DNA of 64,000 bases from Polyangiaceae bacterium (lineage in GTDB: Bacteria; Myxococcota_A; Polyangia; Polyangiales; Polyangiaceae). The stretch covers positions 1-64,000 of the forward strand of contig JAQSWN010000024.1 of assembly GCA_029266615.1 (NCBI GenBank). Direction: 5' to 3'. A model generated the notes under the pieces. The model searched no databases. It worked only from the letters and a program-made list of their open reading frames with translations, and was not told the origin of the DNA. This document shows, in pieces, positions 3,838-14,056 of this stretch; the first letter of the stretch is position 1; the number at the start of each line of letters is the position of its first letter. The translations under genes were made by a program, and so were the position numbers.

Positions 3838-3972
3838 ATGTCCGCTTCGACCTACATCGGCTCGACTCGCTCTTCGGAGCTGGCGTCGTCGGTGAAGTCG
3901 GATGTGGGTGTCGTCGTTGTCGTCGTTACCCTCGCGCTCGGGCTTATTAGCTCGGGTGCGGCGGCCAGCTGA
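3838..3972 (+). CDS. ilvB leader peptide (attenuator peptide)
   Basis: This 44-codon frame lies upstream of ilvB and has a run of six consecutive Val codons followed by Leu and Ile codons: DVGVVVVVV, then TLALGLISSGAAAS and TGA. This is the layout of classical amino-acid attenuator peptides such as E. coli IvbL, which also carries Val runs and precedes ilvBN. Stalling at Val, Leu or Ile codons when the charged tRNAs are scarce would decide the fold of the RNA that follows. The last codons overlap the antiterminator arm at 3954-3961. The tail GLISSGAAAS closely resembles the tail of the cimA leader peptide (GLIIGSGAAAN). Confidence 0.8.
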   Translation: MSASTYIGSTRSSELASSVKSDVGVVVVVVTLALGLISSGAAAS

Positions 3973-4034
3973 CGGAACGACGGTTCCCCCAAGCAGCCCC
4001 CGCACCCAAAAGGTCCGGGGGCTTTTTGCTTTTT
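3954..4034 (+). promoter_or_regulatory. ilvB transcription attenuator: antiterminator arm plus intrinsic terminator
   Basis: The terminator hairpin pairs GCCCCCG (3996-4002) with CGGGGGC (4016-4022), then after a C-C mismatch ACC (4004-4006) with GGT (4012-4014). The loop is CAAAA and the tract TTTTTGCTTTTT (4023-4034) follows. The competing pairing is perfect over 8 bp: GGGTGCGG (3954-3961) with CCGCACCC (4000-4007), which destroys the terminator's 5' arm. The first arm lies inside the last codons of the leader peptide. A ribosome reaching the stop would therefore mask it (termination), while one stalled on the upstream Val/Leu/Ile codons would leave it free (readthrough). Pairings are seen; the switching is inferred from classical attenuation. 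Confidence 0.85.
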
Positions 4035-4080
4035 ACCCCGCCAACTGCAATAGCCAGCATCCAGAAATAGGAGACGCGCC

Positions 4081-5874
4081 GTGGCCGCACCGCTTCACAG
4101 CATTACCGAGCCCCAACCCACCTCGACCGGTCCGAAAACCCTGACCGGCTCCCAAGTCATCTGGGAAGCCCTGGTCAACGAAGGGGTCAAGACCGTCTTC
4201 GGGTATCCGGGCGGCGCGATCATGCCCGCCTACGACGCGCTGACGGACTACCCGCACCTGCGCCACATCCTCGTGCGTCACGAGCAAGGCGCGTCGCACA
4301 TGGCTGACGGCTACGCGCGCGCTTCGGGCAAAGTCGGCGTTTGCGTCGCGACGAGCGGCCCCGGCGCGACGAACCTGGTGACCGGCATCGCGAACGCGAT
4401 GATGGATTCGATCCCGATGGTCGCCATCACGGGTCAGGTCGGCTCGCACCTCATCGGCAGTGACGCCTTTCAAGAGGTGGACATCACCGGCATCACGCTG
4501 CCCATCACCAAGCACAACTTCTTGGTGACCAAGGCCGCTGATATCGGACCGACGATCCGTAAGGCATTCTATATCGCCGCCTCGGGTCGCCCCGGTCCGG
4601 TGCTGGTAGACATCACGAAGGACGCGCAGCAAGCGACCACGGAGTATCGCTACGATCCGTCGCCGGTCCGCATGCCCGGCTACCGTCCCGAGAAGCACCC
4701 GCTGCCGAGCGACATCGCAAAAGCGGTGGAGCTCATCAAGGCGAGCAAACGCCCGATCGTGTTTTCCGGTCACGGCGTCATCAAGAGCAACGCGACGGCG
4801 GCGCTCCTGGAGTTCGTCCAAAAAACGGGATTCCCCGTGGCGCAAACGCTGCTTGGTTTGGGCGGCTTTCCTGCCACGCACGACCGCAGCTTGGGCATGA
4901 TGGGCATGCACGGCGAAGCTTGGGTCAACAAGGCCATTCAAGAGGCCGACCTGATCATCGCCCTCGGCATGCGCTTCGACGACCGGGTCACCGGCAACTT
5001 GAAGACCTACGCGCCCAACGCGAAGAAGATTCACGTCGAGCTGGACCCAGCGGAGATCAACAAGAACGTTCGAGTGGACGTGCCGCTGCTGGGAGACGTC
5101 CGCGAGATTCTGCGGCTCATCACCCCCCACGTGGACGGCGTGAACGTCACCGAGTGGGTCGCGCAGATCGAGCACGAAAAGGGCGACAGCGCCGTCCGCG
5201 AAATCACGAACCTGCCCGACAACGGCCGACTCTTCGCCGCCCACGTCATCCACGACCTCTGGCGCTACACGCAAGGCCGCGCGCTCGTGGTGACGGACGT
5301 GGGCCAGCATCAGATGTGGGAAGCCCAGTATTACAAGCACGACTACCCGCGTAAGCTCGTGACCTCCGGCGGCGCGGGCACGATGGGCTTCGCTTTGCCG
5401 GCCGCGATGGGCGCGCGTTTTGCCTGTCCCGACGACCAGATCTGGGTCGTAGCCGGGGACGGCGGCTTCCAGATGACGGCTTGTGAGCTCGCGACCTGCG
5501 CGCAAGAAGGCATCAAGGTCAACATCGCCGTCATCAACAATGGCTACCTCGGCATGGTGCGCCAGTGGCAGCAGTTCTTCTACGGCGGACGCTACGTCGC
5601 GACGCCGATCAAGAGCCCGGACTTCGTGAAGCTCGCGGAGGCGCATGGCCTCAAGGGCATTCGTGTCACCAAGCGCGACGAGGTGAAGGCGGCGGTAGAG
5701 GCTGCGCAAGCCTCCCCGGATACGTGCATCGTGGACTTCCGGGTCGAGCAGGAAGACAGCGTTTATCCGATGGTGCCGGCGGGCGCGGATCTGGACAACA
5801 TGATTCGCCGCCCCAAGCCCGTGACGGACGACAATCACAACGCCATCTTCGAGACGGGGAAGGACAAGCTATGA
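4081..5874 (+). CDS. ilvB: Acetolactate synthase, large catalytic subunit
   Basis: This 597-residue protein makes acetolactate or acetohydroxybutyrate from pyruvate, the common first step to Val, Leu and Ile, using ThDP and FAD. Visible marks are FGYPGGAIMPAYD at the N terminus, HEQGASHMADGYARASGKVG with the ThDP-activating Glu, and GPGATNLVTGIANA. The C-terminal ThDP/Mg segment reads VVAGDGGFQMTACEL and ends in NNGYLGMVRQWQ. Length is normal for the family. The start is a GTG preceded by AGGAGA at a good distance. It follows the attenuator described above and overlaps the ilvN start by 4 bp (ATGA), implying translational coupling. Confidence 0.96.
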   Translation: MAAPLHSITEPQPTSTGPKTLTGSQVIWEALVNEGVKTVFGYPGGAIMPAYDALTDYPHLRHILVRHEQGASHMADGYARASGKVGVCVATSGPGATNLVTGIANAMMDSIPMVAITGQVGSHLIGSDAFQEVDITGITLPITKHNFLVTKAADIGPTIRKAFYIAASGRPGPVLVDITKDAQQATTEYRYDPSPVRMPGYRPEKHPLPSDIAKAVELIKASKRPIVFSGHGVIKSNATAALLEFVQKTGFPVAQTLLGLGGFPATHDRSLGMMGMHGEAWVNKAIQEADLIIALGMRFDDRVTGNLKTYAPNAKKIHVELDPAEINKNVRVDVPLLGDVREILRLITPHVDGVNVTEWVAQIEHEKGDSAVREITNLPDNGRLFAAHVIHDLWRYTQGRALVVTDVGQHQMWEAQYYKHDYPRKLVTSGGAGTMGFALPAAMGARFACPDDQIWVVAGDGGFQMTACELATCAQEGIKVNIAVINNGYLGMVRQWQQFFYGGRYVATPIKSPDFVKLAEAHGLKGIRVTKRDEVKAAVEAAQASPDTCIVDFRVEQEDSVYPMVPAGADLDNMIRRPKPVTDDNHNAIFETGKDKL

Positions 5875-13341: not shown

Positions 13342-13836
13342 ATGAACCGTACCGCTGGCTTGTTGCTCGTGAGCGCCTCGTTACTGCTCGGTTGCTCCAA
13401 GCCGAAGCCGCCGACGCTCACGCCTCGCTCCGCGCAAGTGACGGCCGTGCTTCCGAGCGGCGTGGAGCTCGGGGTCGAGCTGAACGCCTACAACCCCAAC
13501 GGCTTTCCGTTGATGTGCAGCCAAGTCGATTCAACCTTCGAGCTGCAAGACGGTACGCCGCTGGGCAGCGCGACCAGCAACGAGCCGTTCACGCTGCCGG
13601 CCGAGGGTGACGCGACCATTCGGGCCAAGCTGCAGGTGCGCTTCAGCAGCGCCGCGGCGCTGGCCCCGTATGCGCTCGCAGCCAAGCCGGTGCCGTATCG
13701 CCTTCGCGGCAGCGCGCGCATCGGCGGCGAGCACCTCAACGTGGACGTGCCGTTCACGCTCGACGGCGTGCTCACGGCCGAGCAGGTGATCGCCGCGGGC
13801 TTGCACGGAGCTGCGAACCTGCTGAACAAGCCGTGA
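13342..13836 (+). CDS. LEA type-2 (WHy-domain-like) lipoprotein
   Basis: The 164-residue protein begins with a lipoprotein signal (TAGLLLVSASLLLGC). It continues with a single beta-rich domain whose pattern VELGVELNAYNPNGFPLMCSQVD matches the LEA14/WHy domain. In that family a conserved N-P-N segment lies in an immunoglobulin-like fold. Such proteins are linked to stress and desiccation in plants and are common as lipoproteins in proteobacteria, where function is mostly unproven. It stands alone, 55 bp before the cimA leader. Confidence 0.7.
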   Translation: MNRTAGLLLVSASLLLGCSKPKPPTLTPRSAQVTAVLPSGVELGVELNAYNPNGFPLMCSQVDSTFELQDGTPLGSATSNEPFTLPAEGDATIRAKLQVRFSSAAALAPYALAAKPVPYRLRGSARIGGEHLNVDVPFTLDGVLTAEQVIAAGLHGAANLLNKP

Positions 13837-13891
13837 CAGGCGGGCCATCGCCTTGACGCCCCTCCGCTCCAGGTTCAAGGTTCTGCGCCTC

Positions 13892-13999
13892 ATGCTGCGC
13901 TGCCCGCCCCCGCTCCGCTCCTCGGCGCCTTCGGCGGCCGCAAGTCTGATTCGCTCTGCATCCGGGCTGATTATCGGCTCGGGTGCGGCGGCAAACTGA
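13892..13999 (+). CDS. cimA leader peptide (attenuator peptide)
   Basis: This 35-codon frame before cimA ends SLIRSASGLIIGSGAAAN and TGA. Leu-Ile and Leu-Ile-Ile codons are clustered just before the same tail as in the ilvB leader. Citramalate synthase opens a route to isoleucine, so Ile-codon stalling is the expected signal. The codons for SGAAA coincide with the conserved RNA arm at 13981-13992. A TTGACG at 13853-13858 could be the -35 element of its promoter, though no good -10 is seen. Confidence 0.75.
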   Translation: MLRCPPPLRSSAPSAAASLIRSASGLIIGSGAAAN

Positions 14000-14056
14000 C
14001 GGAAAATCCGGCAGTTTCGTTCCCCCGCGCCGCTCGGTTCGGGGGATTTTTGCTTT
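13981..14056 (+). promoter_or_regulatory. cimA transcription attenuator: antiterminator arm plus intrinsic terminator
   Basis: The terminator pairs TCCCCCG (14021-14027) with CGGGGGA (14040-14046). A C-T mismatch and a 3-bp inner stem (14029-14031 with 14036-14038) close a GCTC loop, and TTTTTGCTTT (14047-14056) follows. The geometry matches the ilvB terminator almost exactly. A competing all-GC pairing is GCGGCG (13985-13990) with CGCCGC (14028-14033), which would break the inner terminator. The leader tail sequence GCTCGGGTGCGGCGGC, then CTGACGGAA after a short variable stretch, is nearly identical to that of ilvB. Confidence 0.8.

Follow-up and report, generated by a model that had tools for sequence, protein, structure and literature searches.

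Why should two short leader open reading frames (ORFs), 10 kb apart and in front of different gene clusters, end in almost the same nucleotides? The question is raised by a 64,000-nucleotide stretch of a Polyangiaceae bacterium (assembly GCA_029266615.1, contig JAQSWN010000024.1, positions 1 to 64,000; here the window, and its genome G000), in which leader 1 precedes ilvB-ilvN-leuA-leuC-leuD and leader 2 precedes cimA-leuB. Our analysis indicates that both are very probably ribosome-mediated transcription attenuators, that the SGAAA tail they encode is a by-product of the RNA and that leader 2 was probably copied from leader 1. The sequences and the gene order are directly established. A 16-nucleotide block, GCTCGGGTGCGGCGGC, occurs exactly at positions 3950-3965 and 13977-13992 of the forward strand, in the last codons of the two leader ORFs, and CTGACGGAA follows both copies after a three-base spacer (CAG or AAA). 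The in-frame tails read GLISSGAAAS in leader 1 and GLIIGSGAAAN in leader 2, each followed by the stop codon. The remaining nine matches to the block in the window carry three mismatches each, and the 11 matches in all do not stand out from shuffles (mean 7.73). In the 8.88-Mb genome the 26-nucleotide core TCGGGTGCGGCGGCNARCTGACGGAA has exactly two sites with up to three mismatches allowed, and its reversed control pattern has none; the near-identical core and tail described in the original prediction are real. A congener, G006, carries both leaders, and the core is also present in the ilvB leader of six further congeners (in G005 as a one-base variant).

The role of the block is suggested by an alignment of 14 leaders (12 of ilvB and two of cimA) in which core, stop spacing and terminator are kept, the cores of G005 and G046 each differing by one base. 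Here GGGTGCGG lies opposite CCGCACCC, which lies in the 5' side and loop of terminator 1. This potential antiterminator pairing is intact in 97.3% of 112 alignment cells, and the same is true of the terminator pairs in 99.3% of 140 cells, where one pair (60-89) covaries; both pairing potential and conservation are direct observations. One terminator position has C on the 5' side in 14/14 leaders, opposite a base that varies (C, A, G or T), as expected if the antiterminator holds that C. In the leaders of a sister family (f5) the arm pairs as GCGGGG/CCCCGC, GCAGGG/CCCTGC or GCGAGG/CCTCGC, some with G.U; four of the ten base pairs show double, compensatory changes, 98.4% of cells are paired and the covariation score was reached by 0/500 shuffles. 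The f5 partners had been picked by duplex energy before alignment, which is a bias toward pairing, but they line up in the same columns. In the proposed mechanism a ribosome would translate the short ORF, whose branched-chain control codons stand just ahead of GGGTGCGG. When charged Val, Leu or Ile tRNA is scarce the ribosome would stall upstream and leave GGGTGCGG free, and the free arm could then pair with the 5' side and loop of the terminator so that transcription continues. Attenuation in the cell and the amino acids sensed are what we infer from such features: both predicted leaders have an ORF whose control codons match the amino acids of its operon, and between ORF and first gene lies a predicted terminator hairpin with a U-run.

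The switch was modeled by computing pair probabilities with the RNA masked to 12 nucleotides past the first A-site base in seven leaders, an equilibrium folding in which the order of synthesis is ignored. With the ribosome past the core the terminator has a probability of 1.00 in 7/7 leaders. Upon upstream stalls the antiterminator reaches 0.91-1.00 in six of the seven, namely both leaders of G006, leader 1 of G000 and the single leaders of G007, G001 and G003. A mutually exclusive antiterminator was found in the model in five leaders of relatives, in part in leader 1 of the window and, at equilibrium, not in its leader 2.

A constraint on the RNA is also seen in a recoding test, in which the arm was recoded synonymously with the terminator fixed and the codon usage of the window applied to all 41 leaders. 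Arm pairing fell within the best 1% of recodings in 30/41 leaders and within the best 5% in 33/41, where many of the leaders had been found via the core, which is a bias, and the arm of G049 was misplaced and counted as a miss. When only the distinct core-bearing leaders located through the position of ilvB are counted, 10 of 11 are in the best 5%, the exception being G039 (0.26); these 11 include G046, which the 41-leader run omits and which scored 0.012 and 0.0145 in earlier versions. For leader 1 only 0.003 of recodings pair equally well (taken from the G006 row, the arm sequences being identical), and leader 2 of G006 has a strong antiterminator at 0.006. Together with the pairing to CCGCACCC and the masked-ribosome model, the test upholds the view that the shared block is the antiterminator arm and that the RNA is under constraint. 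In stating that a simple attenuator can do without conservation of the peptide tail, the original prediction overlooks that here the tail codons are this arm.

To see how far the element extends, we note that the core pattern, at up to three mismatches, is present in 7/97 related genomes at 10 places; by context five of the places belong to leaders (both those of G000, both those of G006 and that of G004) and five do not. An IlvB N-terminal match at E ≤ 1e-40 was obtained in 48/79 genomes. Among the 30 ilvB loci fetched are 12 whose leader ends in the core, or in the core with one base changed, and five (G063, G072, G069, G082, G024) that have a branched-chain-rich ORF and a terminator with a different arm or setting. 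A covariance model made from the 14 aligned leaders, which belong to the window's family, matched at E ≤ 0.01 in 39/108 family genomes and 54/377 genomes of the phylum. At E ≤ 1e-6 the family matches number 24 places in 22 genomes, and all 24 precede branched-chain genes, the first of these being ilvB (17), ilvD or a shortened ilvD (3), an ilvC-like gene (2) or cimA (2); the match is thus not confined to one genome or one operon. Among family loci fetched, 29/30 precede a branched-chain gene (exception L105), as do 5/12 further phylum loci (L113, L114, L121, L122, L135) and not the other seven (L115-L120, L125). The ilvD query is confirmed by NCBIfam and the ilvC-like query matches ketol-acid reductoisomerase below cut-off. 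L099, L100, L101 and L102 each have in the ilv cluster a ketol-acid reductoisomerase-like protein, which in the two that were scored (L100, L101) falls far short of the family cut-off. In L101 and L102 (G127 and G027) a partial ilvD frame stands behind the leader, followed by the ilvC-like gene (and by ilvB in L101); G128 retains a full-length open ilvD frame. In L101 and L102 the leader has apparently persisted longer than its first gene.

The origin of leader 2 can be approached from gene order. Behind the leader, ilvB-ilvN-leuA-cimA are contiguous in G001, G002, G004, G005, G007 and G046; G003 and G039 also have leuC-leuD ahead of cimA, and in G033 cimA follows ilvN. In these stretches leuB lies 3' of cimA, except that none was seen in G007 and G039. 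The near relatives thus have one cluster with one leader, whereas in the window genome three genes separate leuD from cimA, and in G006 the two halves are on different contigs; both carry leader 2. A cimA leader was found in 2/30 cimA loci fetched, those of G000 and G006, by a simple text search (with only 64 nucleotides upstream in G009). Over about 100 bp, from CGGGCT to past the U-run, leader 2 aligns best to leader 1. In full alignment leader 2 of G000 scores 84 and 87 against leader 1 of G000 and G006 (next G002, 76), and leader 2 of G006 scores 97 and 94 (next G002, 88). TGACG after the stop and TTTTTGCTTT after the terminator are common to both leaders of G000 and G006 and absent from the other 10 ilvB leaders; the post-stop TGACG also occurs in G052. 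Leader 2 therefore looks like a lineage-specific copy of leader 1, as judged from sequence, which agrees with the suggested duplication of a regulatory cassette. About 100 bp, from the last control codons to past the U-run, would have been copied in the lineage of the window genome and G006, where cimA-leuB split from ilvB-ilvN-leuA-leuC-leuD. Being widespread, leader 1 is regarded as the ancestral one; the direction and timing of copying are what we infer. Leader ORF 2 (MLRC...SLIRSASGLIIGSGAAAN, stop) has two Leu-Ile clusters and is without a Val codon in the window genome. CimA leads to isoleucine and LeuB to leucine, and the Leu/Ile codons would fit these products.

Whether the shared tail is kept as RNA or as peptide can be judged from its reading frame. 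A scan of a named genome collection for core, arm and terminator gave 75 stretches, of which 28 have ilvB (20), ilvD (6), cimA (1) or an ilvC-like gene (1) within 1500 nucleotides downstream; L204 (Sorangium cellulosum So0157-2), whose stretch ends early, is not in the 28, its leader being the one upstream of ilvB in G138, and the other 46 stretches are outside the frame count. With the frame picked by script as the most branched-chain-rich one, the core is read as GGG-TGC-GGN (GCGPP-like) in 18/28 leaders, as GGT-GCG (GAAA-like) in 10/28 and in the third frame in 0/28, and this change of frame is plainly observed. The stop ends 19-24 nucleotides from the core start in 28/28 (12-24 over the 41 recoding-test leaders). 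In L106 and L107 (G044 and G105) the stop comes directly after the core (GGG TGC GGA TAG), which gives the shortest distance of 12 nucleotides, and ilvD follows. One core in two frames with a narrow range of stop distances means that sequence and distance are kept and the peptide is not. A tail conserved for ribosome arrest or as a nascent-chain signal, which the original prediction had entertained, would account for the recurrence of GAAA-like tails in frame-1 leaders. However the same RNA gives GCG-type tails in other genera and the tail residues vary (SGAVAG, QGAVAG, LGASVA, PSAAAV, PGAGA). The third base of the tail Gly codon is T in 14/14 leaders (in G005 as AGT, Ser), yet GGT makes up only 2-20% of Gly codons in 12 ilvB genes; and in f5 the arm lies just 3' of the stop codon in 14/19 leaders. 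Peptide arrest is thus very improbable, and we rejected it on the frame change across the core. It is apparently for its folding as RNA, and not for the encoded peptide, that the shared stretch has been kept, and the SGAAA tail is, on this reading, a by-product of an RNA arm sited in the last codons. Still less credible is that recent duplication alone explains the match, with a core free of functional constraint: leader 2 does resemble a copy made within the lineage, but leaders of ilvB, ilvD and ilvC-like genes retain the core in different families, similar elements occur beyond the phylum, and leader 2 of G006 has retained its strong antiterminator. Recognition of the core by a common trans-acting RNA-binding factor, also proposed at the outset, is the least probable of all, as it has nothing besides the sequence identity in its favor; pairing accounts for the core without it, and a covariance-model scan of the window with Rfam 15 gave 0 families at gathering score.

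Several results weigh against reading both leaders as working attenuators of common origin. In leader 1 of the window only the last Val codon of the run frees the antiterminator (0.93); the earlier Val codons leave the terminator at 0.98-1.00 and the Leu codons at 0.55-0.91, and Thr and Gly codons near the last Val also clearly free the antiterminator. In its leader 2 the terminator stays at 0.94 or above at all stalls tested, without an equilibrium switch, and 0.59 of synonymous recodings pair equally well or better. No double changes occur in the antiterminator pairs of the 14 close leaders, so covariation is weakly informative on the antiterminator there. Antiterminator and terminator strength are not correlated (rho 0.04, p 0.79), and matching of the two strengths was rejected as a candidate. 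No leader was found within 420 nucleotides upstream in 13/30 ilvB loci; five of these (G026, G027, G040, G044, G073) have a model match further upstream or before an ilvD or ilvC-like gene, and another (G087) has a weak one (E 0.008). In more distant genomes with cimA and ilvB on separate contigs (e.g. G074, G085, G068) no leader was seen. The post-stop part by itself does not mark out leader 1 as the parent of G000 leader 2, which there scores 42 with G046 and 41 each with leader 1 of G000 and of G006. The behavior of leader 2 leaves some room, though not much, for its being a decaying copy in the window genome, giving constitutive termination or mere insulation of cimA-leuB while leader 1 alone regulates. 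The change of CACC to CGCC in the arm would fit decay, as would the missing equilibrium switch and the recoding result. Against this, G000 and G006 share the LI..GLIIGSGAAA tail and the terminator despite divergence in the remainder of the ORF, and equilibrium folding ignores that the antiterminator could form before the 3' arm of the terminator is made. We favor attenuation by both leaders; the features concerned are collected in Table 1.

Table 1. Predicted leader elements and the genes behind them, in window coordinates
Feature	Position	Strand	Remarks
Leader ORF 1	3838..3972	+	44 codons, MSASTYIG...VGVVVVVVTLALGLISSGAAAS, stop; Val/Leu/Ile control codons; read from sequence, start codon inferred
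Antiterminator arm 1, GGGTGCGG	3954..3961	+	In last codons of leader ORF 1; pairs with 4000-4007
Intrinsic terminator 1	3995..4027	+	C.C mismatch; fold -20.8 kcal/mol; predicted
ilvB, acetolactate synthase large subunit	4081..5874	+	First gene after leader 1; TIGR00118 above cut-off
ilvN, acetolactate synthase small subunit	5886..6422	+	TIGR00119 above cut-off, residues 108-263 of ORF 5565-6422; start given is where the match begins, start codon provisional
leuA, 2-isopropylmalate synthase	6625..8301	+	TIGR00973 above cut-off
leuC	8328..9725	+	TIGR00170 above cut-off
leuD	9824..10507	+	TIGR00171 above cut-off
Leader ORF 2	13892..13999	+	35 codons, MLRCPPPLRSSAPSAAASLIRSASGLIIGSGAAAN, stop; Leu/Ile codons, no Val; read from sequence, start inferred
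Antiterminator arm 2, GGGTGCGG	13981..13988	+	7 bases (one G.U) pair with CCGCGCC at 14025-14031
Intrinsic terminator 2	14021..14051	+	TCCCCCG...CGGGGGATTTTT; fold -18.8 kcal/mol; predicted
cimA, citramalate synthase	14102..15772	+	First gene after leader 2; TIGR00977 above cut-off
leuB, 3-isopropylmalate dehydrogenase	15790..16860	+	TIGR00169 above cut-off

The frame and ATG region of leader ORF 1 are common to G006, as is the LI..ASGLIIGSGAAA tail of leader ORF 2. The outermost terminator pair is U-A in leader 2 and G-C in leader 1. Of the three genes between leuD and cimA (10917-13836), one has a product without Pfam match, the next encodes a LacI-type regulator and the last a protein with a LEA_2 domain; in G006 homologs of the former two come after leuD, and a LEA_2 homolog is near cimA. 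On the 3' side of leuB (16932-19936) are genes for a DUF1552 (HXXSHH) protein and a PSD/PSCyt3-domain protein (DUF1592, DUF1588, DUF1595, DUF1585).

The leaders share much with a well-known attenuator, ilvL of the ilvXGMEDA operon of E. coli K-12 (NC_000913.3; L213:523-680). It too has a Val/Leu/Ile-rich leader ORF with the arm inside it, CCGTGCGGGG, read in the GCG frame, and the ilvGMEDA terminator, CCCCCGCACCGAAAGGTCCGGGGG, is near-identical to those of the window's relatives and has the same C.C mismatch. The 14-leader model matches ilvL with 32.8 bits over model positions 28-90 only. However, the ilvL stop ends 36 nucleotides from the core start compared with 12-24, the tail is PPCGAALGRGKA, and its arm pairing is unexceptional in the recoding test (0.157), which applied the codon usage of the window. 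Similar leaders were also found in the class of an Obscuribacterales (Melainabacteria) genome, which we take to be Vampirovibrionia. Model matches at E ≤ 0.05 were obtained in 30/194 genomes of that class, and 13/20 matched loci examined precede ilvD; 11 of the 13 have a branched-chain-rich ORF with an RCG, GCG, WCG, GSG or RSG-type tail. In these 11 ilvD leaders the terminator is like the myxobacterial one (L247, L248, L253, L254, L255, L258, L259, L262, L263, L264, L268). The E. coli and Melainabacteria resemblance may reflect common descent, transfer or convergence. It is possible, though rather less likely than not, that one ancient attenuator RNA (GGGTGCGG arm and CCCCCGCACC...GGTCCGGGGG terminator) governs ilvB, ilvD, ilvC-like and cimA operons in Myxococcota, in some Proteobacteria including E. 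coli ilvGMEDA and in Melainabacteria; it would have outlived its reading frame (GCG to GAAA) and been copied with new control codons when an operon split.

Other leaders have been described upstream of ilvB. The ilvB-II, ilvB-OMG and ilvB RNA motifs resemble the window leaders in having an ORF rich in branched-chain codons before ilvB; attenuation was proposed for them, and a reporter test was performed for ilvB-II (PMC10272879). Among Rfam 15 branched-chain leader families none matched leader 1 at E ≤ 10 and none matched 18 loci at E ≤ 0.5. The full Rfam scan gave four chance-level matches for leader 1 at E ≤ 10, below threshold; the most relevant of them, to Thr_leader, has E 2.3 and 15.4 bits against a cut-off of 55. 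Actinobacterial ilvB leaders, of another phylum than ours, likewise have Val/Leu/Ile codon runs, which overlap candidate terminators upstream of ilvB (PMC1262725); in that paper conserved complementary triples were noted for trp attenuators, and control-codon changes at Streptomyces coelicolor ilvB were reported to be without effect. A 2016 paper states that reliable data on attenuation in cyanobacteria were lacking (PMC4833913). Our literature search for attenuation or ilvB leaders in Deltaproteobacteria and myxococci found none, though a prior prediction of some of these leaders is possible in surveys (Vitreschak 2004, Lopatovskaya 2010).

Taken together, the leaders are well explained as a known kind of regulator, and the interesting parts are the copying with changed control codons and the change of frame. 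A half-operon that has become detached carries an apparent copy of its parent's attenuator, whose control codons suit the products of that half, and an RNA arm has stayed the same in sequence through a change in the frame in which it is read. The signature of the element can also be used to search for branched-chain attenuators in Myxococcota and ilvD leaders in Melainabacteria.

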